NCBI RefSeq assembly: GCF_000473105.1
Contig: NZ_KI421498.1
Span: 620,001 to 684,000, forward strand
Direction: 5' to 3'
Length of the DNA stretch: 64,000 nucleotides
DNA from: Phaeobacter inhibens DSM 16374
Lineage (GTDB): Bacteria; Pseudomonadota; Alphaproteobacteria; Rhodobacterales; Rhodobacteraceae
The first letter of the stretch is position 1. Every line of letters starts with the position of its first letter. A program made the position numbers and the translations under genes. This document shows positions 9,025 to 50,432 of the stretch, one piece after another. The notes under the pieces are model-generated. The model had not been told where the DNA came from. It made no database searches and saw only the letters and a list, made by a program, of their open reading frames with translations.

Positions 9025-9396
<372 letters not shown>

Positions 9397-9555
9397 TCAG
9401 ATCACTTCTACTGAGCCGGGACAATAATAGCCGCAAGCGCTGCGGCGAAACTGCGCATGATTTCGCGACGACTGCCTAAAAATTAATCACAACGCCTGAT
9501 TTCTGCGCAATTTTGAATCGCTGCATGACCACGACATGAAAAAGAGGCTCCTGAC

Positions 9556-35253: not shown

Positions 35254-35281
35254 TCGCAACCGCAGCATAAACCAAATCTGG

Positions 35282-35308
35282 AAAGGGACGCTTTGGCGTC
35301 CCTTTTTT
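35282..35308 (+). terminator. fabF-mltG terminator
   Basis: AAAGGGACGC / GCGTCCCTTT, 10-bp perfect stem, 4-nt loop, then TTTTTTCG. It separates the fab operon from the GTA cluster. Confidence 0.94.
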
Positions 35309-35544
35309 CGTGTGCGAACCCGTTAACTCCATCGTAGGGAAGTTAGGCATTTCCTTAATAAATTCGGTAGTTTGCGCCCGATACTTCAGGTGGTGAATTT
35401 TGACTTTTGCGCTGCTTTATGCCATGCTCTCTGGGCAGCTGGGAAACTGATCGATCCGCCGTGCAGAGGCCTCCACTGGTGCCTGCGCCTATGGCTGGAT
35501 CCGTGGTTTTGCGGATGGAGGTCCATCACTATGAGGCCCCAACC
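35309..35544 (+). promoter_or_regulatory. upstream region of the GTA cluster
   Basis: 236 bp between the mltG terminator and GTA g1. It is A/T-rich at 35320-35400 and must hold the main GTA promoter if transcription starts locally. Single TTAA half-sites are seen but no full CtrA box. In Rhodobacter capsulatus the equivalent promoter is controlled by GafA. Confidence 0.5.
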
Positions 35545-35886
35545 ATGAGCACCTACACACCGGAAAATCGGCTGGCGAAGACCGCCGATCTTCTTTTCTC
35601 ACTCCACAGCTCCATCGAACGGCTCCGGCAGGAGGCCGAGCAGATGCTCGAACGCCTTGCCTGCGATGAGGATGAGGGCGGCAGCACTCCGCGCATCGCC
35701 AAATTGGAAAGCCTGATCCGTGACAGCCAGAAAGTGGAGAAAACCCTTGTCGAACAAAGTGAACAGCATCAGGCCGCAGCCGGTCTCGACATCAAGGCCG
35801 CCCGCGATGAAATCGAAAACCGGTTGGCTCGCCTGCGCGCCAGCCTCGACGCAGAAGATGTTTCTGGACCGGCTCAGCGATCATGA
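35545..35886 (+). CDS. GTA g1, small terminase subunit
   Basis: 113 residues, mostly helical and charged (NRLAKTADLLFSLHSSIERLRQEAEQML), matching the position and character of RcGTA g1, now regarded as TerS. It would help the large terminase engage DNA without strong sequence preference, as GTAs package random host DNA. ATG at 35545 (MSTYTPENR) is chosen; the open frame to 35407 is not coding-like. Overlaps g2 by 29 nt. Confidence 0.82.
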   Translation: MSTYTPENRLAKTADLLFSLHSSIERLRQEAEQMLERLACDEDEGGSTPRIAKLESLIRDSQKVEKTLVEQSEQHQAAAGLDIKAARDEIENRLARLRASLDAEDVSGPAQRS

Positions 35887-37150
35887 CCTCTGTGCGATGC
35901 CCTATGTCTTTGATCTCTGGGCGCTGCCGCATCAACTGCCGCCGGCGGGGGACTGGCGCAGCTGGGTCATCCTTGGCGGACGGGGAGCGGGAAAAACCCG
36001 CGCCGGCGCCGAATGGGTGCGCACGCTGGCCGAAGGGGCAACACCGCTGTCCGCTGGCCGCGCCCGCCGCATCGCGCTCCTTGGGGAAACCTACGATCAG
36101 GTGCGCGATGTCATGGTGCAGGGCGACAGCGGCCTCCTTGCCTGCACGCCCCCCGACCGCCGCCCAACGTGGAAAGCCACCGAAAGACGGCTGATCTGGC
36201 CCAACGGGGCCACCGCGCAGGCGTTTTCGGCCCATGACCCAGAGGCGCTGCGTGGCCCGCAGTTTGATGCCGCCTGGGCGGATGAGCTGGCCAAGTGGAA
36301 GCGCGGGCAGGACAGCTGGGACATGCTGCAATTTGCGCTGCGGCTGGGACAGGACCCGCGTGTCTGCGTCACCACAACGCCGCGCAATGTGGGTGTGCTG
36401 CGCGATCTGCTTGCCAGCCCCTCCACCGTGCAGACCCATGCCGCGACGGAGGCCAACCGCGCCAATCTGGCAGCGTCCTTCCTGCAAGAGGTGCGCAATC
36501 GCTACGCCGGGTCGCGGCTGGGCCGACAAGAGCTGGACGGCATCCTGTTGCAGGATGTCGAGGGCGCGCTCTGGACCAATGCCGGGCTGGTTGCAGCGCA
36601 GATCGCAAAGGCCTCGACACTGGACCGGGTGGTGGTGGCGGTTGATCCGGCGGTGAGCGCGGGCAAACGCTCCGATGCCTGCGGCATCATGGTGGTTGGG
36701 GCGACGTTGCAGGGGCCGCCACAGGACTGGTGCGCCTATGTGCTGGCCGATTGCACCGTGCAGGGGGTTGGCCCGCTGACCTGGGCGCAGGCCGCCATTG
36801 ATGCGCGCGACCGCTACGGCGCCGACCGCGTGGTCGCCGAGGTCAATCAGGGCGGCGCATTGGTCGAAAGCCTGCTGCGCCAGATCGACCCGCTGGTGCC
36901 CTTTACCGCGCTGCATGCCAGCCGGGGCAAGGGCGCGCGGGCGGAACCGGTCGCCGCCCTCTACGAACAGGGCCGGGTGCGTCATGTGCCGGGGCTTGGC
37001 GCGCTGGAGGACCAGCTTTGCCAGATGACCCCGCGCGGCTATCTGGGGCAGGGATCGCCCGACCGGCTGGATGCGCTGGTCTGGGCCGTGCAGGAGCTGA
37101 TCCTGACCCCGGCCAACCGCCACCGGATGCCCCGTGCGCGCATGTTGTGA
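35858..37150 (+). CDS. GTA g2, large terminase
   Basis: Motor ATPase and nuclease that fills GTA heads with host DNA. 430 residues. Walker A GGRGAGKTRAGAEW with Lys46; Walker B region FDAAWADELAKW; RNase H-like nuclease domain starting AVDPAVSAGKRSDACG and a later VVAEVNQGG acid. MPYVFDLWALPHQLPPAGDWRSWVILGG is strongly GTA-type. Start at 35858 (MFLDRLSDHD) is preferred; 35897 is a possible shorter start. Followed by a strong terminator. Confidence 0.95.
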   Translation: MFLDRLSDHDLCAMPYVFDLWALPHQLPPAGDWRSWVILGGRGAGKTRAGAEWVRTLAEGATPLSAGRARRIALLGETYDQVRDVMVQGDSGLLACTPPDRRPTWKATERRLIWPNGATAQAFSAHDPEALRGPQFDAAWADELAKWKRGQDSWDMLQFALRLGQDPRVCVTTTPRNVGVLRDLLASPSTVQTHAATEANRANLAASFLQEVRNRYAGSRLGRQELDGILLQDVEGALWTNAGLVAAQIAKASTLDRVVVAVDPAVSAGKRSDACGIMVVGATLQGPPQDWCAYVLADCTVQGVGPLTWAQAAIDARDRYGADRVVAEVNQGGALVESLLRQIDPLVPFTALHASRGKGARAEPVAALYEQGRVRHVPGLGALEDQLCQMTPRGYLGQGSPDRLDALVWAVQELILTPANRHRMPRARML

Positions 37151-37178
37151 GCTGACAACATCCCGCTGACAGCCCCCG

Positions 37179-37208
37179 AAACGCCCGCAGTGATGCGGGC
37201 GTTTTTCG
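37179..37208 (+). terminator. intrinsic terminator inside the GTA cluster
   Basis: AAACGCCCGCA / TGCGGGCGTTT, an 11-bp perfect stem with a 4-nt loop and then TTCGTTTT, 28 bp after the g2 stop and ~145 bp before g3. By sequence it is one of the strongest terminators in the window. Confidence 0.92.
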
Positions 37209-37352
37209 TTTTATCACAGGCGTTTGCCCTGGGTGTTGCGCGCCCGGCGCGCGCCTCGCTCAAATCTTATTCAATTACAGCCGTCATAAAGGATCACAGC
37301 AAACAGGGGCAGGCTTTGCCCCGTCCCGCAAGTTCAATCAAAGGAGTGGCCC

Positions 37353-38546
37353 ATGGTCTTTGACCTCCTGCGGCGCAAGCAACAGCCCGTCGAAACCAAG
37401 ACAAGCGCCGCCGCCCGTGTGGTGGCCTGGCATGGCAGCACCGGTGGCGCCGGCTGGAGCCCCCGCGACAGCAGTTCACTGACCCGCAGCGGCTTTGCTG
37501 GCAATCCAGTCGGTTACCGCGCCGTCAAGATGATTATTGAGGCCGCCGCCGCCCTGCCGTTGGTCTTGCAGGACGGCACGCAGCGCTACGACAGCCACCC
37601 ATTGCTGGCGCTGCTGGCCCGGCCCAATGCCGCCCAAGGCCGCGCAGAGCTGTTGGAGGCGCTGTTTGGCCACCTGCTGTTGTCGGGCAACGCTTATATT
37701 GAGGCGGTTAGCGATCCCGACGGTCGCGACGTATTGCCGGTCGAACTGCATGTACTGCGCCCCGATCGGATGAGTGTTGTGCCTGGCAGCGATGGTTGGC
37801 CCGTGGCCTATGATTACAGCGTGTCGGGCCGGAAACACCGCTTTGATGTGACCATGCCCTGCGCCCCGATTTGCCATCTGCGCAGCTTTCACCCGCAGGA
37901 TGATCACTACGGGCTGTCGCCGATGCAGGCCGCCGCCATGGCGGTGGATGTGCATACCTCTGCCTCGCGCTGGTCCAAGGCGCTCTTGGACAATGCAGCC
38001 CGGCCTTCTGGCGCGCTGGTCTGGAGCGGCAGCGATGGTCAGGGGTTGATGGCAGAGGATCAGTTTCGACGCCTAAGTGACGAAATTGAAATGAATTTCC
38101 AAGGTGCGCGCAATGCCGGCCGTCCGATGGTGCTCGAAGGCGGGTTGGATTGGAAACCGATGGGCTTCTCGCCATCGGATATGGAATTTCACCAGACCAA
38201 GGACGCCGCTGCGCGTGAAATTGCGCTGGCCTTTGGGGTGCCACCGATGCTGTTGGGACTGCCCGGAGACGCCACCTATGCCAATTATCAAGAGGCCAAC
38301 CGCGCCTTTTACCGACTCACCGTGCTGCCGCTTGTGACCCGTGTCACGGCCACGCTGTCGGACTGGTTGTCGCGCTATCAGGGGTCTGCGGTGACGCTGA
38401 AACCGGACCTTGATCAGGTGTCTGCATTGGCCTCCGAACGTGAGGCGCAGTGGCGCCGTGTGGCCAGCGCCGACTTTCTGACCGTTGCAGAAAAACGCCG
38501 CCTTCTGGGCCTGCCGCCGCAAGAGGAGGCCGAGCGCGATGACTGA
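37353..38546 (+). CDS. GTA g3, HK97-family portal protein
   Basis: 397 residues; forms the dodecameric ring at the head vertex through which DNA passes. Seen: NPVGYRAVKMIIEAAAALPLV near the N-terminus, HPLLALLARPNAAQGRAELLEAL, and AFGVPPMLLGLPGDATYANYQEANRAFYRLTVLPL, a typical portal block. The start has AAAGGAG just upstream. The 200 bp before it (after the g2 terminator) may hold a second promoter. Confidence 0.95.
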   Translation: MVFDLLRRKQQPVETKTSAAARVVAWHGSTGGAGWSPRDSSSLTRSGFAGNPVGYRAVKMIIEAAAALPLVLQDGTQRYDSHPLLALLARPNAAQGRAELLEALFGHLLLSGNAYIEAVSDPDGRDVLPVELHVLRPDRMSVVPGSDGWPVAYDYSVSGRKHRFDVTMPCAPICHLRSFHPQDDHYGLSPMQAAAMAVDVHTSASRWSKALLDNAARPSGALVWSGSDGQGLMAEDQFRRLSDEIEMNFQGARNAGRPMVLEGGLDWKPMGFSPSDMEFHQTKDAAAREIALAFGVPPMLLGLPGDATYANYQEANRAFYRLTVLPLVTRVTATLSDWLSRYQGSAVTLKPDLDQVSALASEREAQWRRVASADFLTVAEKRRLLGLPPQEEAERDD

Positions 38547-38757
38547 GATCCCGATCCCGCCGTTTGAATGCTCTCCGGGGCTGCGGCTCACCGCCCATGA
38601 ACGCATTGCTGAAATCCAGCAAGAGGCGATGAACCGTCGGCTCGACCGGCTGGAGATGATGATGGAACGGATGGAAAAACGGCTCTGGCTCACCGTCTAC
38701 GGCGTTGCTGCGGTCATTCTTGCACAGGCTTTTCAGTCCTTTCTGGTGGTGCAGTAA
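38539..38757 (+). CDS. GTA g3.5, small membrane-type protein
   Basis: 72 residues; charged helix (ERIAEIQQEAMNRRLDRLEMMMERMEKRL) followed by a hydrophobic helix (TVYGVAAVILAQAF). Overlaps the g3 stop by 8 nt. Position and size match RcGTA g3.5, whose function is unknown to me. Confidence 0.85.
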   Translation: MTEIPIPPFECSPGLRLTAHERIAEIQQEAMNRRLDRLEMMMERMEKRLWLTVYGVAAVILAQAFQSFLVVQ

Positions 38758-38792
38758 TACCCATGAATTCAATGAGATATAAGGGGAAGATG

Positions 38793-39410
38793 ATGCGACA
38801 TGATGAGCATCTGGAACATAAATTCGCCCGCTTCGGCGAGGATCTGACCATCGGGGCTGAGGCCGACGATATGGTTGTGATCAGCGGCTACGCCAGCCTG
38901 TTCGGCTGCGTCGATGGCGGCGGTGATCTGGTGCAACCCGGCGCCTATCAGGCGTCCCTCGACCGTCTCTCAAAGGCGGGTATCGCGGTGAAAATGCTCT
39001 GGCAGCATGATCCGGCCCGGCCTATCGGCGTCTGGGACGTCGTGCGCGAAGATGCCCGTGGCCTGCATGTCAAAGGCCGCATTCTGACCCGCACCCAAAA
39101 GGGCGCCGAGGCTGCGGCGCTGATCGCGGTTGGCGCGCTGGATGGTCTTTCCATCGGCTATCGCGCCCGCCGCGCCACGCAGCGCAAAGGCGGCGGTCGC
39201 TGCCTCGCGGAACTGGATCTCTGGGAGGTGTCGCTGGTGACCTTCCCGATGTTGCCCACCGCCCGTGTCACCGCCACGGCACAGCCCGTGACTGCCGCCA
39301 AATCAACATCCGCTGAGCCGGATCTGAGCGATCCGGGCGAGACACCGCAGATCTGGCGCGAGGTGATCGAGATGTTGCGCAGCGGGGCCAGTCTCGCCCC
39401 CCTCGGCTGA
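38793..39410 (+). CDS. GTA g4, prohead protease
   Basis: HK97-type (U35) serine protease that trims the capsid protein. About 205 residues. Catalytic His in MLWQHDPARPIGVW and Ser in ALDGLSIGYRARR, then LWEVSLVTFPMLPTARV. Three starts are possible (38763, 38790, 38793); 38793 has GGGG at the best spacing. Confidence 0.93.
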   Translation: MRHDEHLEHKFARFGEDLTIGAEADDMVVISGYASLFGCVDGGGDLVQPGAYQASLDRLSKAGIAVKMLWQHDPARPIGVWDVVREDARGLHVKGRILTRTQKGAEAAALIAVGALDGLSIGYRARRATQRKGGGRCLAELDLWEVSLVTFPMLPTARVTATAQPVTAAKSTSAEPDLSDPGETPQIWREVIEMLRSGASLAPLG

Positions 39411-39458
39411 GCACATCGCCGTTTCCCGTCTTCTCCAACCGACCCAAAGGACAGACAG

Positions 39459-40643
39459 ATGAGCCACACCCAACCCCATCCGGACCCAACGGCCCACTCC
39501 CATGCGGCCCCGCAGGAGGTCAAGCAGGCCGTTGCTGACTTCGTGCATAATTTCAATGGGTTCAAAGATGACATTGCCCTGAAACTGAAACAGACAGAAG
39601 AGCGTATGACCATGCTGGATCGCAAATCCCACTTTGCCAATCGTCCCCCTCTGGCCGCAGCTGATGCGGGCACGGCCCCCCATCAAAAGGCGTTGGATGC
39701 CTATCTCCGCTCCGGTGATGATGCCGCCCTGCGCGGCCTGGATCTGGATGCCAAGGCGATGAGTTCAACCGTCAACGGCGATGGTGGCTATCTTGTCGAC
39801 CCTCAGACCGCCGAGACGGTCAAATCGGTGCTGACCAGCACCGCCTCCATCCGCGCCGTGGCGTCGGTGGTGATGGTAGAGGCGACGTCTTATGACGTGC
39901 TGATTGACCATGGTGATGTGGGCCATGGCTGGGCCAATGAGACCGGCGCCGTGATCGAGACATCCACCCCGGTGATCGACCGGATCACCATCCCGCTGCA
40001 TGAGCTGAGCGCGCTGCCCAAGGCGTCACAGCGGCTGCTGGATGACAGCGCCTTTGATATCGAGGGCTGGCTGGCGGGGCGCATCGCGGATAAATTCTCC
40101 CGTGCAGAGGCCGCCGCCTTCATCATGGGGGACGGCAATGACAAGCCGACCGGCATCCTCTACCACCCGGTGGTGGCCAATGACAGCTGGAGCTGGGGCA
40201 ACATTGGCTATGTCACCACCGGTGTTGAGGGCGATATCGGCGATGGGGATGCGATCATTGATCTGGTCTATGCGCTTGGCGCGCAGTATCGGGCCAACGC
40301 CAGCTTTGTGATGAACTCCAAAACTGCCGGCCTCCTGCGCAAGTTGAAGGACGCCGATGGCCGCTTCCTGTGGTCCGATGGTCTGGCTGCCGCAGAACCG
40401 GCGCGGTTGATGGGGTATCCCGTTGTCATTGCTGAGGATATGCCCGACGCCGATGTGAACGGCTATGCGGTGGCCTTTGGCGATTTCGCGGCTGGCTACA
40501 CCATCGCCGAACGCCCGGATCTGCGGGTGCTGCGCGATCCCTTCAGCGCCAAACCCCATGTGCTGTTCTATGCCACCAAACGTGTGGGCGGTGACGTCAG
40601 CGATTTTGCGGCCATCAAACTGCTGAAATTCGGCCTGAGCTGA
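39459..40643 (+). CDS. GTA g5, major capsid protein
   Basis: 394 residues, HK97 fold. The first ~100 residues (HNFNGFKDDIALKLKQTEERMTML) are a helical delta/scaffold domain removed by g4. The mature shell part has MSSTVNGDGGYLVDPQTAETV, the PLHELSALPKASQRLLDDSAFDIEGWLAGRI block and C-terminal PDLRVLRDPFSAKPHVLFYATKRVGGDVSDFAAIKLLKF. Most abundant GTA protein. Confidence 0.96.
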   Translation: MSHTQPHPDPTAHSHAAPQEVKQAVADFVHNFNGFKDDIALKLKQTEERMTMLDRKSHFANRPPLAAADAGTAPHQKALDAYLRSGDDAALRGLDLDAKAMSSTVNGDGGYLVDPQTAETVKSVLTSTASIRAVASVVMVEATSYDVLIDHGDVGHGWANETGAVIETSTPVIDRITIPLHELSALPKASQRLLDDSAFDIEGWLAGRIADKFSRAEAAAFIMGDGNDKPTGILYHPVVANDSWSWGNIGYVTTGVEGDIGDGDAIIDLVYALGAQYRANASFVMNSKTAGLLRKLKDADGRFLWSDGLAAAEPARLMGYPVVIAEDMPDADVNGYAVAFGDFAAGYTIAERPDLRVLRDPFSAKPHVLFYATKRVGGDVSDFAAIKLLKFGLS

Positions 40644-40822
40644 CGCTTGGACCGATGGCGGTACCGGCTCGTCGGTGCCGTCTGCGGATGCGCGCCCCGG
40701 CCACTGTCGTCCAGCTGCTCCCCTTCCGTCCCGCGGCAGCAGCCCGGCGCGCATCCGCCCCAACCCATCCGGCAACAGCCAGCCCGAGCAGCCCCCGAAC
40801 GAACAGCCGTTGGAGTGAAATG

Positions 40823-41470
40823 ATGATGTTGAGTGAAATGACACCGGTGCCAGAGGCAGTCCTGCCGCAAGAGGCGTTCAAGGCGCATCTGCGTCTGGGC
40901 ACCGGGTTTGACGAGGCGGGGTTGCAGGAGGCGGTGTTGATCAGCTTCCTGCGCGCGGCCATCGCGGCGATCGAGGCACGCACCGGCAAGGTGTTGCTGG
41001 CGCGGGATTTTCTGCTGACCCTTTCGACCTGGCGCGACCTGCAGGTGCAGGCACTACCGCTGGCGCCGGTGCAGATGATTCAATCGGTAACTCTGGTGGA
41101 TGGATCAGGCAGTGAACAGCTGCTGGCCCCGCAGCGCTATCGGCTGGAACCCGACAGCCAGCAGCCCCGGCTGCGCCCGGTGGGGGGACCGCTGCCGATG
41201 GTTGCCAGCGGTGGTGCGGTGCGGATCGCGATCCGCGCAGGCATGGCCAACAGCTGGGCGGCGTTGCCCGGTGATCTGGCGCAGGCGGTGCTGATGCTGG
41301 CGGCGCATTACTATGAATTCCGCGATGACACCCGGCTGCAGGGCGGTTGTATGCCCTTTGGCGTCACCAGCCTGATTGAACGCTACCGCGCCCTGCGGGT
41401 GAGCCTGGGGGTGGGGGCCGCTGTGGACCGTGGGTTTGGTCGCAACTTCGGGCCGGGGGCAGGCGCATGA
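40823..41470 (+). CDS. GTA g6, head-tail connector
   Basis: About 215 residues, adaptor-like (LRLGTGFDEAGLQEAVLISFLRAAIAAIEARTGK, then ALPGDLAQAVLMLAAHYYEFRD). It sits between portal and stopper in the RcGTA neck. Three ATGs in a row (40820, 40823, 40826) follow GGAG; the middle one has the best spacing. Ends in an ATGA overlap with g7. Confidence 0.88.
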   Translation: MMLSEMTPVPEAVLPQEAFKAHLRLGTGFDEAGLQEAVLISFLRAAIAAIEARTGKVLLARDFLLTLSTWRDLQVQALPLAPVQMIQSVTLVDGSGSEQLLAPQRYRLEPDSQQPRLRPVGGPLPMVASGGAVRIAIRAGMANSWAALPGDLAQAVLMLAAHYYEFRDDTRLQGGCMPFGVTSLIERYRALRVSLGVGAAVDRGFGRNFGPGAGA

Positions 41471-41838
41471 GCCGCCGCACCACCTCCCGCCGCGCATCCG
41501 CCACGACACCACGTCTCAACCGTTGTCTGGCGCTGGAAGATCCGCGCCGCACCTCGGATGGCGCGGGCGGGTTTCTTGAGGCATGGCAGCTGCTTGGCCA
41601 CCATTGGTGCGAGCTGCGTGCCCTCAGTGGCCGCAGCACCGACCAATCCGGCACCAGCCTGTCGCTGCAACGCTACCGCATCACCCTGCGTGCCCATCCC
41701 ACCGGCAGCCCTGCGCGGCCCCGGCCGGACCAGCGGCTGCGCGATGGTGCCCGGATCTTTCGCATTGATGCGGTGGCCGAGGGCGACCCCGACGGCCGCT
41801 ACCTGACCTGTTTCGCCACCGAGGAGACCACCGCATGA
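41467..41838 (+). CDS. GTA g7, head-tail joining protein
   Basis: 123 residues of the phage head-tail joining (SPP1 gp16-like stopper) family: LEDPRRTSDGAGGFLEAWQLLGHHWCELRALSGRS, RFRIDAV-like end (IFRIDAVAEGDPDGRYLTCFATEE). ATGA overlaps on both sides. Confidence 0.9.
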   Translation: MSRRTTSRRASATTPRLNRCLALEDPRRTSDGAGGFLEAWQLLGHHWCELRALSGRSTDQSGTSLSLQRYRITLRAHPTGSPARPRPDQRLRDGARIFRIDAVAEGDPDGRYLTCFATEETTA

Positions 41839-42242
41839 CCTATGCCCTGGCCCTGCCATTGCAGGAATCCCTGTTTCAGCACCTCAGCGCGGACCCCGAT
41901 CTGACCACCGCGCTGAGCGGCGCCATCTATGACGCGCTGCCCGCAGGCACGCTGCCGCAGACCTATGTGACCCTTGGCCCGGAGGAGGTGCGCGACCGCT
42001 CTGATCGCAGTGGCGCCGGTGCCCATCACCGGGTGGAGATCACCGTGCATACCGATACTGCCGGGTTCGCCGGGGCAAAGGCGATTGCCGCCATGCTCTG
42101 TGACAGCCTCGCCAGCGCCTCGCTGACCCTGTCACGCGGGCGGCTGGTGGGCCTGTGGTTTGAACGCGCCAGCGCCAGTCGCAACTCTTCCGGTGGCCGT
42201 CAGATCCGCCTGCGCTTTGCCGCGCGGCTGGAGGATGTCTGA
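41835..42242 (+). CDS. GTA g8, tail terminator (DUF3168)
   Basis: 135 residues of DUF3168: LPLQESLFQHLSADPDLTTALSGAIYDALPAGTLPQTYVTLGPE near the start and RQIRLRFAARLEDV at the end. In RcGTA this protein caps the tail tube at the neck. Translationally coupled to g7. Confidence 0.9.
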   Translation: MTYALALPLQESLFQHLSADPDLTTALSGAIYDALPAGTLPQTYVTLGPEEVRDRSDRSGAGAHHRVEITVHTDTAGFAGAKAIAAMLCDSLASASLTLSRGRLVGLWFERASASRNSSGGRQIRLRFAARLEDV

Positions 42243-42343
42243 CCGCAGTCACTCCATAACAGTTTTATAATTCAGATAATTACGCGGTTCAGCTCATGTC
42301 TTTCATGCCGTGCCGCCCCCTTCAACCACAGGAGATCACCACG

Positions 42344-42757
42344 ATGAGTGTCCAAAATGGCAAGGATCTATTGGTCAAGGTCGATATGACTGGCGACGGT
42401 CAGTTCGAAACCATCGCAGGGCTGCGCGCCACGCGGATCAGCTTCAACGCCGAAAGCGTCGATGTCACCAGTCTGGAAAGCCAGGGTGGCTGGCGCGAGC
42501 TGCTGTCCGGCGCGGGGGTGCGCTCGGCCAATATCTCCGGCTCTGGCATCTTTCGCGATGCCGGGACGGATGAGCGGGCGCGGCAGCTGTTCTTTGACGG
42601 GCTGACCCCGGCGTTTCAGGTGATCATCCCCGATTTCGGCATTGTCGAAGGCGCGTTTCAGGTGACCGCGCTGGAATATGCCGGCAGCCACAATGGTGAG
42701 GCGACTTATGAGCTGTCGCTGGCCAGCGCCGGGGCGCTGGTCTTCACCGCGATCTAA
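42344..42757 (+). CDS. GTA g9, major tail (tube) protein
   Basis: 137 residues; NGKDLLVKVDMTGDGQFETIAGLRATRISFNAESVDVTSLES is the standard tube-protein opening and GLTPAFQVIIPDFGIVEGAFQVTALEY follows. Start set by AGGAGATCACCACG before ATG. Forms the stacked hexamer rings of the tail. Confidence 0.94.
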   Translation: MSVQNGKDLLVKVDMTGDGQFETIAGLRATRISFNAESVDVTSLESQGGWRELLSGAGVRSANISGSGIFRDAGTDERARQLFFDGLTPAFQVIIPDFGIVEGAFQVTALEYAGSHNGEATYELSLASAGALVFTAI

Positions 42758-42770
42758 GGGGGGACCGACC

Positions 42771-43175
42771 ATGACCTCCTCTCAACAGTCAGCCCCAGCC
42801 GTTAACGCCTATGGAGCCAATCCCTATGCGGGCGAGGTGGCCCTGCGGATCAATGGCGAGGTACTGGCGCTGAAACTCACCCTCGGGGCGCTGGCGACGC
42901 TGGAAACGCGGCTCAGGACAGGATCGCTGATTGATCTGGTGACCCGGTTCGAAAGCGGCGGATTCTCGGCGGCGGATGTGCTGGCGCTGCTGGCGGCAGG
43001 GTTGCAGGGCGGTGGTCACCGGCTGAGTGAGGCCGATCTGGCTGCTGCCGATATCGACGGTGGTCCGATGCAGGCCGCACGGACCGCCGCACAGCTCCTG
43101 GCACGCAGCTTCGCGCTGCCGGGAGAGGCGGGCGCGCAGGTTCCGGGACAGGGGCCGGGATCGGTGGCCCCATGA
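42771..43175 (+). CDS. GTA g10, tail assembly protein
   Basis: 134 residues of the GTA-specific family: NPYAGEVALRINGEVLALKLTLGALATLETRLR, FSAADVLALLAAGLQGGGHRLSEADLA. Likely a tail-assembly chaperone that holds the tape measure. ATG after GGGGGGACCGACC; ATGA overlap with the next gene. Confidence 0.88.
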   Translation: MTSSQQSAPAVNAYGANPYAGEVALRINGEVLALKLTLGALATLETRLRTGSLIDLVTRFESGGFSAADVLALLAAGLQGGGHRLSEADLAAADIDGGPMQAARTAAQLLARSFALPGEAGAQVPGQGPGSVAP

Positions 43176-43429
43176 CGCCCCGGCAGCGCACCACAGACGG
43201 GCAGAGCACCGGCCTTGACTGGCCGGCGCTGATACGGGCGGGGCTGGTGGGGCTGCGCCTCACGCCGGACCAGTTCTGGCGCCTCACCCCGGCAGAGCTG
43301 CGGCTGATGCTGGGGCAGGACACTGGCGCCGTCCCTTTGGGGCGGGCAGGTCTGGATCGGCTGATGCACGCCTTCCCGGATCCCGCCGCGCCGAAATCCC
43401 CAGAAACAGGAGCAGTGAGCGATGAGTGA
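43172..43429 (+). CDS. GTA g10.1, tail assembly chaperone
   Basis: 85 residues; LDWPALIRAGLVGLRLTPDQFWRLTPAELRLMLG matches the small tail-assembly-chaperone family found between g10 and g11 in GTAs. Overlaps g10 by 4 nt and g11 by 8 nt. Confidence 0.88.
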   Translation: MTPRQRTTDGQSTGLDWPALIRAGLVGLRLTPDQFWRLTPAELRLMLGQDTGAVPLGRAGLDRLMHAFPDPAAPKSPETGAVSDE

Positions 43430-44078
43430 CACAGGACTGAACCAGCTGGAACAACAGGGCGAGGCGCTGAGCGACAGCCTTGGCGATGCGGCGGGCATGG
43501 CCGCCACATTCGACGCCGAACTGCGTCGGGTGCGTGCCGCCTTTGCCGCCACCGGCAAGGATGCCGATACACTGGAGCGCGGCATGTCCAAGGGGCTGCG
43601 CCGTGCTTTTGACGGTGTTGTCTTTGACGGCATGAAACTCTCGGATGCGCTGGATACCATGGCGCAGTCAATGATCCAGACCACCTATTCGGCGGCCATC
43701 AAACCCGTGACCAGCCATGTGGGCGGGTTGCTGTCGGATGGGGTGGGCAAACTGATGAGCGGCATTCTCCCCTTTGCCGACGGGGCGGCGTTTTCGCAAG
43801 GCCGGGTGATGCCCTTTGCCAAGGGGGGGATCGTCAGCGGCCCGGTGAGCTTTCCCATGCGCGGCGGCACCGGGCTGATGGGCGAGGCAGGCCCAGAGGC
43901 GATCCTGCCGCTGACCCGTGGCGCCGATGGCGCGCTTGGTGTGCGCAGTCAGGGCGGGCGGGCAACCTCAGTCGTGATGAACATCCAGACCCCCGATGTG
44001 CAGGGATTTCAACGCAGTCAGGGCCAGATCGCGGCCCAGCTGAGCCGCGCCCTGTCGCGTGGCAATCGCAACCGCTGA
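43422..44078 (+). CDS. GTA g11, tape measure protein
   Basis: 218 residues, very short for a tape measure (siphophages often exceed 700), matching the short GTA tail. The N-terminal half is helical (LNQLEQQGEALSDSLGDAAGMAATFDAELRRVRAAF). The second half is Gly-rich with GGIVSGPVSFPMRGGTGLMGEAGPEAILPLTRGADG, the hallmark block of this family, and it ends with a basic tail. Confidence 0.93.
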   Translation: MSDTGLNQLEQQGEALSDSLGDAAGMAATFDAELRRVRAAFAATGKDADTLERGMSKGLRRAFDGVVFDGMKLSDALDTMAQSMIQTTYSAAIKPVTSHVGGLLSDGVGKLMSGILPFADGAAFSQGRVMPFAKGGIVSGPVSFPMRGGTGLMGEAGPEAILPLTRGADGALGVRSQGGRATSVVMNIQTPDVQGFQRSQGQIAAQLSRALSRGNRNR

Positions 44079-44093
44079 GCCGGAGGACAGCAG

Positions 44094-44726
44094 ATGAATT
44101 TTCACGAGGTCAGATTTCCCGCATCGCTGAGCTTCGGCTCAATCGGCGGCCCGGAGCGGCGCACCGATGTGGTGACGCTTGCCAACGGGCATGAGGAACG
44201 CAACACCCCCTGGGCGCATTCGCGGCGCCGCTATGACGCGGGGCTGGGCCTGCGGGGGCTGGAGGATATCGAGGCGCTGATTGCCTTTTTCGAGGCACGG
44301 CAAGGCCAGATGTACGGCTTTCGCTGGAAAGATTGGTCCGACTACAAATCCGCCCGCGCCACGCTGGACGTGACCTTTGGGGATCAGGTGATCGGCATGG
44401 GCGACGGGGCGCAGCAGGTGTTCCAGCTGAGCAAGACCTATCGTTCCGGCAGCTTTGCCTATCAGCGTCCGATTACCAAACCTGTGGCGGGCAGCGTGCG
44501 CATCGGGATTGAGCAGGACGCCTTGCAGGAGACGGTGGATTACACGCTAGACAGCACCCTTGGCACCATCACGCTGGCGCATCCGCCAGAGGCGGGCCTG
44601 TCGGTGAAGGCGGGGTTTGAGTTTGATGTGCCGGTGCGCTTTGACACCGACCGGATCCAGACCAGCGTGGCGTCCTTTCAGGCGGGCGACGTGCCCAATG
44701 TCCCAGTGGTGGAGGTGCGGGTCTGA
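44094..44726 (+). CDS. GTA g12, distal tail protein (DUF2460)
   Basis: 210 residues; FHEVRFPASLSFGSIGGPERRTDVVTLANGHEERNTPWAHSRRRYDAGLGLR is the DUF2460 opening. Forms the ring at the tail end that joins the tube to the baseplate hub. Its stop overlaps the g13 ATG by one base. Confidence 0.94.
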   Translation: MNFHEVRFPASLSFGSIGGPERRTDVVTLANGHEERNTPWAHSRRRYDAGLGLRGLEDIEALIAFFEARQGQMYGFRWKDWSDYKSARATLDVTFGDQVIGMGDGAQQVFQLSKTYRSGSFAYQRPITKPVAGSVRIGIEQDALQETVDYTLDSTLGTITLAHPPEAGLSVKAGFEFDVPVRFDTDRIQTSVASFQAGDVPNVPVVEVRV

Positions 44727-45676
44727 TGGCGGGGGTAAGCGAGGCGTTTCAATCCCATGTGGCCAGCGGTCTCACCACGCTGTGTCGTTGCTGGCTGGTG
44801 ACCCGCAGCGATGGCGTGCGGTTCGGTTTTACCGACCATGACCGCGACCTGCGGTTCGAAAGCGCTGCCGAGGGCGAGGCCGGTCTGCTGTTTCGCGCAG
44901 GCACAGGCCTGACGGCGCGCAGCCTGCAACAGGTCACCGGGTTGGCGGTCGACAACACCGAGGCGCTTGGCGCGCTGAGCGATGCCGCCATCCGCGAAGA
45001 CGAGATCGAGGCCGGGCGCTTTGACGGCGCTGAGGTGCGCTGCTGGCTGGTGAACTGGGCCGATGTCTCGGTGCGCTGGTTGCAGTTTCGCGGCAGCTTT
45101 GGCCAGATCCGCCGTGCTGGTGGTGCCTTTGAGGCGGAGCTGCGCGGCCTGACGGAGGCGCTCAATCAGCCGATGGGGCGGATCTACCAGAAACCCTGCA
45201 CGGCGGTGCTGGGCGATGGCGCCTGCCGCTTTGACATGACAACGCCGGGCTACACGTTGGAGCTGGCCGCCGAAGAAATCCGCGAGGGGCAGTATTTCGG
45301 ATTTGCCGCCCTGCCGGGGTTTGAGCCGAACTGGTTCACGTCGGGTCGTCTCACGGTGATGAGCGGTGCAGCATCGGGCCTGTGGGGCTGGATCAAGCAG
45401 GACCGTCAGCAGGTCGGACGGCTGGGACAGGACGCAAGCGCGCCGGATCCGAACGCAGAGCACCGCCAGCTGACCCTCTGGGAACCGCTGCGGGCGCAGA
45501 TCCGACCCGGTGATCTGCTGCATCTGGCAGCGGGTTGCGACAAGCGGCTGAAGACCTGCCGGTTGAAGTTCAACAATGGCGTCAATTTTCAGGGCTTTCC
45601 GGATATCCCCGGCGAAGACTGGGTGATGAGCGTGCCGCGCCAGAGCGGCAATAACACTGGCGGCAGCCGCAGATGA
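44726..45676 (+). CDS. GTA g13, baseplate hub with Fe-S site (DUF2163)
   Basis: 316 residues. The N-terminal part (~20-170) is DUF2163 and the C-terminal part is the phage BR0599-like domain. Cys158, Cys167, Cys271 and Cys278 (KPCTAVLGDGACRF; AAGCDKRLKTCRL) are the likely ligands of the iron-sulfur cluster reported in the RcGTA hub structure. C20, C22 and C106 are extra. ATGA overlap with g14. Confidence 0.93.
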   Translation: MAGVSEAFQSHVASGLTTLCRCWLVTRSDGVRFGFTDHDRDLRFESAAEGEAGLLFRAGTGLTARSLQQVTGLAVDNTEALGALSDAAIREDEIEAGRFDGAEVRCWLVNWADVSVRWLQFRGSFGQIRRAGGAFEAELRGLTEALNQPMGRIYQKPCTAVLGDGACRFDMTTPGYTLELAAEEIREGQYFGFAALPGFEPNWFTSGRLTVMSGAASGLWGWIKQDRQQVGRLGQDASAPDPNAEHRQLTLWEPLRAQIRPGDLLHLAAGCDKRLKTCRLKFNNGVNFQGFPDIPGEDWVMSVPRQSGNNTGGSRR

Positions 45677-46143
45677 GCGGCGCCACGGGGATATTGCGCG
45701 CCCAGCTCGTTGCGGCGGCGCGGGGTTGGTTGGGCACGCCCTATGTGCATCAGGCCGCCCGGCGCGGGGCGGGCTGCGATTGCCTCGGCCTGATCCGGGG
45801 TCTCTGGCGCGAGGTCTACGGGCAGGAGCCGGAGGCGGTGCCGGGCTATACGATGGACTGGTCCGAACCCCAGGGCGAGGAGGCGCTGTGGCAGGCGGCT
45901 CTGCGCCATCTCAGCCCCCGACCGCTAGAGGATGCGCGCGCCGGAGACGTCCTCCTGTTTCGGATGCGCCGGGGGGCGGTGGCCAAACATATCGCGCTGC
46001 AAACTGAAACCGGCGCCATGCCGCGGTTCATCCATGCCTATAGCGGCCACGGTGTGGTCGAGAGCGCATTGAGCCAGCCGTGGCGACGGCGGATCGTGGC
46101 GCGGTTTTCCTTTCCTGATGTTGATGCTGATGAGGTGACGTGA
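45673..46143 (+). CDS. GTA g14, NlpC/P60 peptidase
   Basis: 156 residues. Catalytic Cys37 in GAGCDCLGL (the usual DCxGL motif) and His106 in VAKHIALQ. As part of the baseplate it would open recipient peptidoglycan cross-links during DNA delivery. ATGA overlaps on both sides. The final Asp/Asn/His of the triad was not pinned down. Confidence 0.94.
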   Translation: MSGATGILRAQLVAAARGWLGTPYVHQAARRGAGCDCLGLIRGLWREVYGQEPEAVPGYTMDWSEPQGEEALWQAALRHLSPRPLEDARAGDVLLFRMRRGAVAKHIALQTETGAMPRFIHAYSGHGVVESALSQPWRRRIVARFSFPDVDADEVT

Positions 46144-49100
46144 TGGCGACCATTCTTCTTTCTGCGGCGGGGGCGGCCCTTGGCGGCTCGGTTGGGGGGG
46201 CTGTGGCGGGTCTGTCCTCGGTAGCGATTGGCCGCGCACTTGGCGCCACCGTCGGGCGTGCCATCGACAGCCGCCTGCTGGGGGCGGGCAGTGAGCCGGT
46301 GGAGACCGGCCGGGTGGAACGCTTCCGCCTGACCCATGCCAGCGATGGCCAGCCGATTGCGCAGGTCTATGGCCGGATGCGGGTGGGCGGGCAGGTGATC
46401 TGGGCGTCTGAGTTCCGCGAGACCTCCACCACCAGTGGCGGCGGTGGCAAGGGCGGCGGTCCGCGCCAGCCCAAGGTCACCAGCTACAGCTATGATGTCT
46501 CGCTGGCGGTGGCGGTCTGCGCCGGAGAGGTCGCCTCCATCGGGCGGGTCTGGGCTGATGGGGAGGAGGTCGCGCCTAAGGATTTGAACATGACCGTCTA
46601 TCGCGGCACCATGGACCAGCTCCCCGATCCGGTGATTGAGGCGGTGGAGGGTGCGGGCGAGGTGCCCGCCTATCGTGGCACCGCCTATGTGGTGATGGAG
46701 AACCTGGCGCTGGAACGCTTTGGCAACCGGGTGCCGCAATTCTCGTTCGAGGTGCTGCGTGCCGAACAACCGGCCTCCAGCACCTATGATCTGGATCTGC
46801 CGCAGCTGGTGCAGGGGGTTGCCCTGATGCCGGGGACCGGGGAATACGCGCTGGCCAGCACGCCGGTGCATTACGACCACGGGCCGGGACAGGCCAAGCC
46901 CGCCAATTCGCACAGCCCCTCGGGGGAGACCGATCTGGTCACCTCGCTGACGACCCTTGGCGAGGAGCTGCCCGCCTGTGGCGCGGCCTCGCTGATTGTG
47001 TCGTGGTTTGGTAATGATCTGCGCTGTGGGGCCTGTACCGTCAAACCGAAGGTGGAGCGGCAGCATATCGAGGGGGCGAATATGCCCTGGTCGGTGGCCG
47101 GGCTGACCCGCACGGAGGCCGAGCTGATCGCGCGACAAGAGGACCGGCCGATCTATGGCGGCACCCCAACTGATGCCTCGGTGATTGAGGCCATTCGCGC
47201 ACTGCAGGAGCAGGGCAAGCGGGTGATGTTCTACCCGTTTATCCTGATGGATCAGATGGCGGGCAATGATCTGCCCGATCCCTGGAGCGGTGAGCCGGGA
47301 CAGGCGCATCTGCCCTGGCGGGGACGGATCACCCTGTCGCGGGCACCCGGCCAGCCCGGCAGCCCCGATGGCACGGCTACGGCGCGGGCTGAGGTGCAGC
47401 AGTTCTTTGGCACGGCAACCGCGGCGGATTTCACCGTGGCTGACGGGAGCGTCACCTATAGTGGCCCGTTGGAGGATTGGGGGCTGCGGCGGTTCATCCT
47501 GCATAATGCCGCGCTTTGTGCCGCAGCGGGCGGGGTGGAGGCGTTCTGCATCAGCTCGGAGATGCGTGGGTTGACCCAGATCCGCGATGAGGCAGGCTTT
47601 CCTGCGGTGGCAGAGCTGCGGGCGCTGACACAGGAGGTGCGCCAGATCCTTGGTCCGGACACCCAGATCGGCTATGCCGCCGACTGGTCGGAATACTGGG
47701 GCTACCAGAGCCCGGAGGGGGATCGCTATTTCCACCTTGATCCGCTGTGGGCGGATGAGGAGATCGACTTCATCGGCATCGACAATTACATGCCGCTGTC
47801 CGACTGGCGCGAGGGGGAGGATCATCTGGACGCCAAGGCCGGCACGCCCAATATCTATGACCTCAGCTATCTGCGCGCCAATATCGAAGGTGGCGAGGGC
47901 TATGACTGGTATTACCACTCGCCCGAGGCGGAGGCGGCCCAGATCCGCACACCAATCACCGATGGGGCGTATGAGGAGCCGTGGATCTGGCGCTACAAGG
48001 ATCTGCGCAGCTGGTGGTCGAAGCCGCATCATGACCGGATCAACGGGCAACGTGCCGCGCTGCCCACCGCATGGGAGCCGCAGAGCAAACCGATCTGGTT
48101 CACCGAACTGGGCTGTGCTGCGATCGACAAGGGCACCAATCAGCCGAACAAGTTTCTGGATCCCAAAAGCTCCGAATCCAAACTGCCGAAATTCTCTGAC
48201 GGGCAGCGCGATGACATGATGCAGCTAGCCTATCTGCGTGCATTACTGGGCTATTGGCAGGAGGAGGGGATGAACCCGGTCTCCGAGGTCTATGGTGGCC
48301 CGATGCTGGATATGTCGAACGCCTATGTCTGGGCCTGGGACGCGCGACCGTTTCCGACCTTTCCCAATGCGGTGGAGGTCTGGAGCGACGGGGAGAATTA
48401 CCTGCGCGGCCATTGGCTGAACGGACGGGTGGGGCAACGCACGCTGGCCTCGGTGCTGGAGGAGATCTGTGCCGCCTCGGGTGTTGCGGCGATTGATGTC
48501 AGCGACCTGCCTGCGCTGGTGCGCGGTTATGCGATCAGCGATGTCGGGGAGGCGCGCGCCGCGCTGCAGCCACTGTTGCTGCGCCACGGGGTGGATGCCA
48601 TCGAACGCGACGGGCTGCTGCGGTTCCGCCTGCGCAATGGGCGACAGGACGCAGCGCTGGATCTGGCGCAACTGGTTGAGGGGCAGGAGCTGGACGGGGT
48701 GCTGGAACAGACCCGCGCGCCGGAGGCCGAGCTGGCCGGGCGGATGCGGCTGCGTTTTGTCGAATGGGGCGGGCGCCATTATCTGCGCGGCGAGGAGGCC
48801 GTGCTGCCTGATGAGGCCACCCATGCGGTCAGCGACAATGAGCTGCCGATGGCGCTGACCCGCGCCGAGGGGCGGCAGGTGGTGGAGCGCTGGCTGAGCG
48901 AGGCCCGTATGGCCCGTGATACCCTGCGGCTGGAATTGCCGCCCTCCGCCATGGCGCTGGGCGCGGGCGATGTGATCCGCCTGCCGCTTGCGGGGACAGA
49001 GGCAGGTCCGGAGGCAGGCCCGGAGGCGGGTGCGGAGGTCGGCAGCGGTGCGCAGGCGCGCTACCGGATCGACCGGGTGGAACAGGGCGCGGCGCAGCTG

Positions 49101-50123
49101 ATCGAGGCGGTGCGGATCGAGCCGGAGAACTACCACCCCGCACCGGTGCCGGAGGAATTGCCCGGTGTCATCGCCTTTGCGGCGCCAGTGCCGGTGCTGC
49201 CGCTGTTCATGGACCTGCCGCTGATTGGCGGCGATGAGGTGCCCCATGCGCCGCATCTGGCGGTCACGGCGCAGCCCTGGCCGGGGAGCGTTGCCCTGTA
49301 TGGCGCACAGAGTGATGCGGATTATGTGCTGGAAGAAGTTCTGGCCGCGGCCTCAACCATTGCCATCACCAACACGGTGTTGCCTGCGGGTGCGCTGGGC
49401 CGTTGGGAGCGCGGTGCAGATCTGGAAGTCGATATGATCACCGGTCAATTCCAGAGCCGGGACCGGACATCGGTGCTGAACGGGGCCAATCTGGTGGCGA
49501 TTGGCGATGGCAGCCCCGGCAATTGGGAGCTGCTGCAATTTGCCAAGGCCGAGCTGATTGCGCCGGGGCGCTATCTTCTGCGCGACCGGCTGCGTGGGCA
49601 GCAGGGCAGCGATGCGCGGATGCCGGTGGCCTGGCCCAAGGGGTCTTATGTGGTGGCGCTGGATGGCACGCCGCAGCAGATCACTCTGGCTGCCAATCAG
49701 CGCGGCCTTAGCCGTCACTACCGCATCGGCACCGCCCGGCGCCCCTATGATGATCCAAGCTATGTGCATCTGGAGGCGGCCTTTGCCGGTGAAGGGCTAC
49801 GGCCCTATGCGCCGGTGCATCTGCGCCAGAAAGGCGTGTTGGGCAGCGGTGCGGTCGGGCTGGACTGGATCCGCCGCAGCCGCACCGACGGCGACCGCTG
49901 GGATCTGGCGGAGATCCCCTTGGGCGAGGATCTGGAGCGCTACCGCCTGCGGGTGCTGCGCGGCAGTGACGTGCTGCGCGAGGAGCTGCTGGACAGTCCC
50001 GGCTGGAGCTATCCGGTGGCGGCACAGACAGCGGATGCGGTGGCGCCGGGCGATCGCGTCGAGGTGGCGCAAGTCTCGGCCCGCTACGGGGCGGGCGCGG
50101 CCACCGCCCTGCGGCTGGTCTGA
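46140..50123 (+). CDS. GTA g15, megatron baseplate protein
   Basis: 1327 residues, the largest protein here. A hydrophobic Gly/Ala-rich N-terminus (~5-40) may insert in membranes on DNA ejection. A tail-hub part follows (GQPIAQVYGRMRVGGQVIWASEFRE). The GTA TIM-barrel-like domain lies at ~430-730 (GGVEAFCISSEMRGLTQIRDEAG; DWSEYWGYQSPEGDRYFHLDPLWADEEIDFIGIDNY; WFTELGCAAIDKGTNQPNKF). Beta-rich receptor-type domains follow to the C-terminus. A GPEA-type tandem repeat sits near residue 955. Contacts the recipient surface. Confidence 0.95.
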   Translation: MMATILLSAAGAALGGSVGGAVAGLSSVAIGRALGATVGRAIDSRLLGAGSEPVETGRVERFRLTHASDGQPIAQVYGRMRVGGQVIWASEFRETSTTSGGGGKGGGPRQPKVTSYSYDVSLAVAVCAGEVASIGRVWADGEEVAPKDLNMTVYRGTMDQLPDPVIEAVEGAGEVPAYRGTAYVVMENLALERFGNRVPQFSFEVLRAEQPASSTYDLDLPQLVQGVALMPGTGEYALASTPVHYDHGPGQAKPANSHSPSGETDLVTSLTTLGEELPACGAASLIVSWFGNDLRCGACTVKPKVERQHIEGANMPWSVAGLTRTEAELIARQEDRPIYGGTPTDASVIEAIRALQEQGKRVMFYPFILMDQMAGNDLPDPWSGEPGQAHLPWRGRITLSRAPGQPGSPDGTATARAEVQQFFGTATAADFTVADGSVTYSGPLEDWGLRRFILHNAALCAAAGGVEAFCISSEMRGLTQIRDEAGFPAVAELRALTQEVRQILGPDTQIGYAADWSEYWGYQSPEGDRYFHLDPLWADEEIDFIGIDNYMPLSDWREGEDHLDAKAGTPNIYDLSYLRANIEGGEGYDWYYHSPEAEAAQIRTPITDGAYEEPWIWRYKDLRSWWSKPHHDRINGQRAALPTAWEPQSKPIWFTELGCAAIDKGTNQPNKFLDPKSSESKLPKFSDGQRDDMMQLAYLRALLGYWQEEGMNPVSEVYGGPMLDMSNAYVWAWDARPFPTFPNAVEVWSDGENYLRGHWLNGRVGQRTLASVLEEICAASGVAAIDVSDLPALVRGYAISDVGEARAALQPLLLRHGVDAIERDGLLRFRLRNGRQDAALDLAQLVEGQELDGVLEQTRAPEAELAGRMRLRFVEWGGRHYLRGEEAVLPDEATHAVSDNELPMALTRAEGRQVVERWLSEARMARDTLRLELPPSAMALGAGDVIRLPLAGTEAGPEAGPEAGAEVGSGAQARYRIDRVEQGAAQLIEAVRIEPENYHPAPVPEELPGVIAFAAPVPVLPLFMDLPLIGGDEVPHAPHLAVTAQPWPGSVALYGAQSDADYVLEEVLAAASTIAITNTVLPAGALGRWERGADLEVDMITGQFQSRDRTSVLNGANLVAIGDGSPGNWELLQFAKAELIAPGRYLLRDRLRGQQGSDARMPVAWPKGSYVVALDGTPQQITLAANQRGLSRHYRIGTARRPYDDPSYVHLEAAFAGEGLRPYAPVHLRQKGVLGSGAVGLDWIRRSRTDGDRWDLAEIPLGEDLERYRLRVLRGSDVLREELLDSPGWSYPVAAQTADAVAPGDRVEVAQVSARYGAGAATALRLV
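48999..49046. repeat. 12-bp tandem repeat within g15
   Basis: Four 12-bp units beginning GAGG, in frame, encode EAGP-EAGP-EAGA-EVGS. The first two differ at one base; a likely slippage-prone linker in the megatron. Confidence 0.8.
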
Positions 50124-50135
50124 GGCGGGACGGGG

Positions 50136-50432
50136 ATGCGGCGTCCTGTCCTGCCCGGTGACATCACCAGCACCGCCCGCGCGTTGCTGGCGGTGGCCCC
50201 GGCGCAGCGGCGCGTGCTGTGCGAGCGGATCTTTGCCGGGGCCGGGCAGGCGTTGCGCCATTCGCGCCGCCATCGTCGGCTCTGTCCGGACTGGGGGGAT
50301 GGCTCCCTGAGTGCTGCGGCGCGGAGATTCCCGCTGGCGGATGAGCCGTTTTACGATGCGCCGCAATATCTGTCCTGTACCCGGCTGGTGCTGGCCCAAT
50401 TGGCGCGTCATGTCAGGCATAATCCGGAGTGA
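50136..50432 (+). CDS. small ORF after GTA g15, unknown
   Basis: 98 residues, Arg-rich and His-rich (PAQRRVLCERIFAGAGQALRHSRRHRRLCPDWGDGSLSAAARRF), helical, two Cys. It follows g15 by 12 bp on the same strand and is probably co-transcribed. I know no function; genes of this size after the GTA cluster occur in related genomes as far as I recall. Confidence 0.7.
   Translation: MRRPVLPGDITSTARALLAVAPAQRRVLCERIFAGAGQALRHSRRHRRLCPDWGDGSLSAAARRFPLADEPFYDAPQYLSCTRLVLAQLARHVRHNPE

Follow-up and report, generated by a model that had tools for sequence, protein, structure and literature searches.

The gene transfer agent (GTA) of Rhodobacter capsulatus, RcGTA, is flanked in its host by yceG and, after g16, by cysE1 (PMC9552610), and GafA is reported to bind the promoter of RcGTA in its -35/-10/start region, at -10 and the start site, 76-125 bp upstream of g1 (PMC6363796). 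The mode of action of GafA is unsettled, as an alternative sigma-like factor (PMC6363796), an omega-subunit recruiter (PMC9638019) and an antiterminator (PMC11150451) have all been proposed. In Caulobacter, read-through of a terminator located directly 3' of gtaT (terL) is described as requiring GafZ, whose binding site lies between -35 and -10 (PMC11150451). GafA is a fused homologue of GafY and GafZ, its C-terminal part being homologous to GafZ (PMC9632790, PMC11150451), and the Caulobacter authors suggested that GafA might have an unrecognized anti-termination activity (PMC11150451). Here we compare these systems with the RcGTA-type cluster at positions 35,545-50,432 of a 64-kb stretch of the genome of Phaeobacter inhibens DSM 16374. 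This stretch, termed the window, covers positions 620,001-684,000 of contig C6 in a 4.13-Mb genome of six contigs, and coordinates given without a contig or locus label are positions within it.

The 202-base gap between g2 (terL, large terminase) and g3 (portal) contains a strong intrinsic terminator that is followed by a conserved element:

37178-37213, + strand: intrinsic terminator with a 12-bp stem, a 4-base loop (hairpin 37,178-37,205) and a T-rich tail, 27 bases behind the terL stop
37235-37253, + strand: conserved GTTGC-N8-CGNNCG element, 118 bases upstream of the portal ATG, also present before the endolysin and tail-fibre genes
37261-37300, + strand: conserved block CAAATCTTATTCAATTACAGCCGTCATAAAGGATCACAGC, a possible core promoter of g3 as judged from sequence conservation

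Because of the terminator behind terL and the element before g3, g1-g2 and g3-g16 appear to be transcribed as two units, and the single cluster under single control that was implied by an earlier sequence-only reading appears doubtful. We consider it somewhat more probable than its opposite that this is a functional RcGTA-type cluster in which transcription terminators gate expression. In Phaeobacter, transcription from the g1 promoter would be stopped in the cell at the terminator directly 3' of terL, such that packaging genes (g1-g2) and particle genes (g3-g16) would form separable units, the latter being switched on via their own element, common to the endolysin-holin and tail-fibre genes and most likely read by GafA. 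An earlier gate is envisaged for the majority of the other Rhodobacterales sampled: a terminator about 20 nucleotides (nt) behind the g1 start would stop unmodified polymerase, with GafA as the likely antiterminator.

The hairpin behind terL ranked first of 15 sites in a terminator scan; shuffled sequences gave 9.4 +/- 3.2 sites, so that most of the sites other than this hairpin are due to chance. The 75-nt stretch containing it has a folding energy of -27 kcal/mol (z -3.40) that was equalled by none of 200 shuffles. Behind terL, the terminator stem is found in all seven genomes of the genus while the surrounding bases drift; the loop is altered in genome G004, the stem itself in G001 and G002. 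Gap hairpins reach -15.4 kcal/mol or lower in each of the seven, with G001 (-15.4) as the weakest and with the value for G006 stemming from a neighbouring hairpin, the conserved stem being nonetheless present in the G006 alignment. For comparison beyond the genus, 80 loci were collected and four (L024, L030, L067, L079) dropped that did not have both terL and portal. Among the remaining 76, the terL-portal gap measures at least 114 bases in nearly all cases (one exception, 51). Explaining the gap by a lost gene was rejected, given its generality and the terminator and conserved element it contains.

The pattern TTGC-N8-CGNNCG occurs upstream of the portal gene in 45 of the 76 loci of other genera, often with CGTACG, and precedes g1 in some, including L003, L004, L005, L015, L022, L025, L028, L033 and L048. 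In the window genome, the pattern, fixed beforehand, is located 87 bases before the ATG of both the endolysin gene and the gene for a DUF2793 protein. After training on these 45 loci, a weight matrix ranked the g3 site of the window first of 127,932 positions (23.8 vs. 12.4 for the runner-up), the endolysin site first of 22,934 and the tail-fibre site first of 27,934 positions. Matrix scores are at least 18.3 before the endolysin gene in all seven genus genomes and at least 17.8 before the DUF2793 gene in all five that have it. A candidate tspA gene was looked up afterwards; the top site of its 17-kb stretch (33,934 positions) lies 131 bases upstream, with a weak score of 11.7.

The terL-portal junction also serves as an insertion site. 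The gap exceeds 400 bases in 20 of the 76 loci, which carry inserts of 554 to 5,853 bases, and the ten inserts scanned differ in content, with genes for a short-chain dehydrogenase, choloylglycine hydrolase, cation efflux, dimethylsulfoniopropionate (DMSP) lyase and a GNAT protein, while several had no Pfam match. In Pelagivirga sediminicola (L063), a DMSP lyase gene lies between terL and portal at about 9155-10000 and is preceded by a very strong terminator (-28.0 kcal/mol). In Ruegeria sp. PrR005 (L010, 4148-10000), the insert measures 5.85 kb and includes one open reading frame (ORF) that by eye resembles a transporter-binding protein. The longest insert ORF opposes the direction of the cluster in 16 of the 20 long-insert loci, and the element before g3 is kept in 18 of them. 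An oppositely oriented gene between g2 and g3 would be tolerated most easily if g3 had a promoter of its own.

These findings bear on a plain single operon as an alternative, with g1-g16 all transcribed from one promoter upstream of g1 that GafA activates. The terL hairpin would then be leaky or would only shape the ratio of terminase to capsid, and the g3 element would be a relic. A single operon is in line with RNA-seq data from R. capsulatus that are reported to place g16 on the core transcript (PMC9552610) and with the common promoter that, as detailed below, is assumed in the field. Conservation of the stem in seven of seven genus genomes speaks against it, and a relic does not explain an element present in 45 of 76 loci and 18 of 20 long-insert loci; we regard a single operon as unlikely.

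In the other genera, a promoter of the form TTGAC-N18-TA is located about 465 bases before terL in 71 of the 76 loci; L008, L057, L058, L077 and L080 were dropped from the leader analysis, having no -35 hexamer in place or terL off the contig. A terminator of -13 kcal/mol or better is present within 140 bases of the promoter in 68 of the 71 loci (controls: 104/1,667 random stretches, 37/710 shuffles), and at -16 kcal/mol the count is still 62 of 71 (50/1,667 and 11/710). The hairpin begins at a median of 54 bases behind the -35 region, which places it some 20 nt past the predicted g1 start site. Alignment of 59 leaders yielded an 11-pair hairpin with 92.6% of cells paired. Double changes occur in nine of the 11 pairs, in 35 cells vs. 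8.6 after shuffling (0/500), and displacing the partner by 1-3 columns left at most 59% paired. The 59 were drawn from 72 leaders, a choice that favours the structure: the window, L003, L007, L013, L018 and L023 were left out first, and seven more of a different sequence type were removed afterwards (13 of 72 in all). Three Paracoccus loci that were not used in model building match the leader model at 57.8-62.6 bits and are independent of it. A search of 61 genomes gave 20 matches in 19 genomes, 16 of them just before terL and the other four weak (E 7e-4 or worse). The 61-genome set overlaps the 76-locus set (e.g., L062 and G027:C59), so this search informs mainly about specificity and is no independent confirmation.

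The position of this terminator separates the favoured reading from one in which the role of GafA ends with the activation of initiation at g1 and g3 and the terminators do no more than insulate the units. Such an arrangement would agree with an element that recurs upstream of g3, of accessory genes and, in some relatives, of g1, with the mostly opposed orientation of host genes at the junction and with the reported binding of GafA to the omega subunit (PMC9638019). It leaves unexplained why 68 of 71 loci have a terminator only about 20 nt past the g1 start: such a promoter would be useless unless the terminator can be overcome. We therefore consider two promoters without antitermination possible but rather doubtful. 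A gate opened by GafA is favoured because of the GafZ precedent, the homology and promoter binding of GafA and a conserved spacer between -35 and -10 (TTTGCGCaCGgT in Rhodobacterales), where the factor would be expected to load.

The leader hairpin could also be an attenuator controlled by a small molecule, ribosome or metabolite, or the 3' end of a small RNA, and not a target of GafA at all. The predicted g1 transcript begins with 20 nt (CATGCTAGAAGAAGTGGGC; A1 columns 4-22, 59 loci) whose conservation comes close to that of the promoter, and in the RNAalifold structure AGTGGG of this segment is paired with the T-tract. Against this stand the precedent of GafZ in Caulobacter and the finding that 16 of the 20 model matches among the 61 genomes adjoin terL, the other four being weak, and we judge an attenuator or small RNA quite improbable. 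The conserved 20 nt could act in pausing, in loading or as antiterminator RNA.

The usual leader hairpin is missing or poor in L018, L023 and L058 and absent from its place in the genus of the window. L023 and L058 resemble the window in having a terminator at the terL-portal junction, which suggests that the gate has moved. In the leader of g1 in G005, a weaker, displaced hairpin is present.

A number of observations weigh against terminator gating by GafA as outlined here. The prevailing view in the field, as expressed in PMC10883770, places the cluster under a common promoter, and the hairpins might stabilise mRNA instead. The comparison loci do not include R. capsulatus itself, which was not among the best 80 of the contig scan, nor was RcGTA among the 25 portal matches listed from a phage collection. 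The leader terminator was not found upstream of g1 in the window or in the leaders of its genus, and the leader-model search gave no match at the GTA of this genus. Five of the 13 excluded leaders had been dropped for poor or missing hairpins. Outside the genus, junction terminators are only partly conserved, with 28 of 56 short-gap loci reaching -13 kcal/mol vs. 75 of 560 shuffles. The element does not precede gafA in any of the seven genus genomes at a matrix score of at least 17, so that an element at gafA is unsupported by the matrix, and in other genera hardly any accessory gene is preceded by it at this threshold (endolysin 0/22, DUF2793 1/25, gafA 1/20). Nor is the bare pattern GTTGC-N8-CGNNCG enriched genome-wide, with 90 sites vs. 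108 for the reversed-pattern control; it was rejected as a genome-wide regulon marker, and the argument consequently rests on matrix and positions, not on the count. Among the 90 sites, those of the GTA rank 3, 5 and 6 with unrelated sites ranking higher; inspection of the surroundings of other high-ranking sites by eye revealed no further GTA genes.

Generalization to Rhodobacterales GTAs as a whole, with a terminator gate and processive antitermination by GafA, two units, one regulon comprising lysis, tail fibre and tailspike genes, and the junction as a tolerated landing site, is tentative, and we place it somewhat below even chances.

Several components of the system are encoded outside the cluster. 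As the sequence-only reading had anticipated, a lysis locus and a GafA-type regulator are found elsewhere in the genome: gafA encodes a DUF6456 protein of 362 amino acids and adjoins a DUF6477 gene, while the endolysin gene (Glyco_hydro_108 and PG_binding_3) is followed by GTA_holin_3TM. Another Glyco_hydro_108 gene was not considered as the GTA endolysin because it lies in a Mu-like prophage, recognized by eye (L122, contig C6:484000-496500). The search for separate GTA loci also yielded a candidate tspA, a 761-residue pectate-lyase-like protein adjoining lysS. It was identified by neighbourhood, not by comparison with TspA, tspA having been reported in the lysS neighbourhood (PMC13420450). 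The single DUF2793 gene of the genome, a member of what is described as the RcGTA tail fibre family (PMC10883770), resides on the biofilm plasmid contig C5 of about 68 kb (68.6 kb), a stretch of which is 97-98% identical to 65-70-kb P. inhibens plasmids (30 best matches). The N-terminus of the protein resembles a chain of roseophage R4C (8gtc, E 8.1e-14). The gene (L124:6355-7611) lies among exopolysaccharide (EPS) and RTX genes of this rhamnose/biofilm plasmid, its element being at 6268, 87 bases upstream. Plasmid pPGA1_65 of P. inhibens DSM 17395 has this gene as well (L325:8001-9257), flanked by rhamnose and GDP-fucose genes. Matches to it were found in 58 Phaeobacter plasmid records; two congeners, G001 and G002, gave no DUF2793 match at all. 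Its plasmid location beside surface-sugar genes would put a receptor-binding part of the particle on a mobile replicon.

The cluster itself comprises 18 open reading frames in RcGTA order, g1-g15 plus g16, within the following arrangement:

35276-35312, + strand: terminator-like hairpin with T-run 3' of yceG/mltG, upstream cluster boundary, read from the sequence
35399-35428, + strand: putative g1 promoter, TTTGAC, 18-base spacer, CATGCT (weak -10), by positional alignment with CTTGAC-N18-TATARR of other genera
35545-35886, + strand: g1, small-terminase position, 113 residues; no Pfam match, placed by position and conserved counterparts
35858-37150, + strand: g2, terL large terminase, Pfam Terminase_6N/6C; start inferred as the first in-frame ATG after the g1 overlap
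37353-38546, + strand: g3, portal, Pfam Phage_portal
38485-38757, + strand: g3.5 position, 90 residues, TTG start; no Pfam match, by position only
38763-39410, + strand: g4, prohead protease, Pfam Peptidase_S78
39459-40643, + strand: g5, major capsid protein, Pfam Phage_capsid, PDB 6tb9
40820-41470, + strand: g6, head-tail connector, start inferred; Pfam score under the cut-off (20.3 vs. 21.2 bits)
41467-41838, + strand: g7, head completion, Pfam Phage_HCP
41835-42242, + strand: g8, tail completion, Pfam Tail_completion_gp17
42344-42757, + strand: g9, tail tube, start inferred, Pfam Phage_tail_2
42771-43175, + strand: g10, start inferred, Pfam Phage_TAC_11 (GTA-gp10)
43172-43429, + strand: g10.1, tail assembly chaperone, Pfam Phage_TAC_6
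43422-44078, + strand: g11, short tape measure, 218 residues; no Pfam match, placed by position and conserved counterparts
44094-44726, + strand: g12, distal tail, Pfam DUF2460
44726-45676, + strand: g13, hub, Pfam Gp84_N and BR0599
45673-46143, + strand: g14, NlpC/P60 peptidase, Pfam NLPC_P60
46140-50123, + strand: g15, megatron, Pfam GTA_TIM, Phage-tail_3 and Rcc01698_C, PDB 6tba
50136-50432, + strand: g16, 98 residues, counterpart of rcc01699 by position, Pfam DUF7742
50725-51540, + strand: cysE-type serine acetyltransferase, downstream neighbour

Open frames and Pfam domains from terminase to megatron bear out the claim that all core RcGTA homologues are present in order with intact frames, and the cluster is an RcGTA-type gene transfer agent, i.e., of a known kind. 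The top PDB matches of g5 and g15 are the RcGTA major capsid protein (6tb9, Rcc01687; E 5.5e-173) and the RcGTA megatron (6tba; 1610.7 bits), while g11 matched only the tape measure of another phage. Two features that had been singled out earlier were dropped as oddities, both being shared with RcGTA: a tape measure of 218 residues is normal, that of RcGTA being given as 113 + 83 + 20 residues (PMC7296036), and the trailing ORF taken to be unknown is g16, i.e., DUF7742 (rcc01699), a familiar RcGTA feature whose deletion in R. capsulatus is reported to cause no phenotype (PMC9552610). Host genes flank the cluster, yceG/mltG upstream and cysE downstream; as far as these flanks are concerned, neither is an integrase or replication gene.

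Pairwise ratios of non-synonymous to synonymous change (dN/dS; Nei-Gojobori, own script) were determined for 17 genes against six congeners, g3.5 being excluded and g16 remaining unscored for G001, the stretch of which ends inside g15. Values range from 0 (g9) to 0.52 (g1 vs. the most distant congener) with most below 0.3, in agreement with the purifying selection that had been named as support for function. Expression of the GTA region and capsids in supernatants are reported for Phaeobacter piscinae, where a prophage is also induced (PMC9942592). Low dN/dS, the presence of accessory loci and expression in P. piscinae agree with the earlier expectation of functional particles, and it is likely that the cluster makes them. 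Particle genes by themselves are no proof of use, the one point in favour of a decaying, functionless prophage remnant. Such a remnant is hardly conceivable: dN/dS lies within 0-0.52 for all gene pairs computed, the genome carries the lysis genes, the activator and the fibre gene, and the region is expressed in P. piscinae (PMC9942592).

A covarying terminator right behind a promoter turns the published suggestion of GafA antitermination into a direct reporter test. The terminators in the window and its relatives could be the switch that decides when the particle is made. If so, this would link GTA control in Caulobacter and Rhodobacterales, explain the silence of a lethal programme in most cells and mean that packaging and particle genes can be regulated apart. 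The inserted host genes at the junction show that the domesticated cluster takes up cargo while keeping its particle genes. The literature search suggests that these control sites are new for Rhodobacterales GTAs: no report of a leader or terL-portal terminator was found in them, most subscription journals being outside its coverage and absence thus unproven.

With RcGTA of R. capsulatus, the locus shares gene content and order from g1 to g16, the flanks yceG and cysE1, the top structures for g5 and g15 and the location of GafA, endolysin-holin, tail fibre and candidate tspA in separate loci. It differs in the terminator and regulon element between terL and portal, R. capsulatus being outside the comparison set, and in the plasmid location of the tail-fibre gene. 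The GTA of P. piscinae S26 is a like cluster beside cysE that is reported to be expressed and to yield capsids (PMC9942592). The GTA of Caulobacter crescentus (GafYZ, terGTA) likewise has a terminator directly 3' of terL, and the homologue of GafZ in the window genome is the GafA-type protein with DUF6456. The parallel is weakened by the build of terGTA, which consists of three 150-bp GC-rich repeats with imperfect inverted repeats, whereas the 202-base terL-portal gap of the window holds a single simple hairpin with a T-tract. Antitermination has been demonstrated in Caulobacter and is a proposal for the window. For the GTA of Bartonella, antitermination is reportedly the subject of one paper. 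In the analogy to Lambda Q and AlpA drawn for Caulobacter (PMC11150451), a promoter-proximal terminator is overcome by a promoter-loaded factor, and GafA would resemble these proteins in its way of working, with no sequence relation being claimed.

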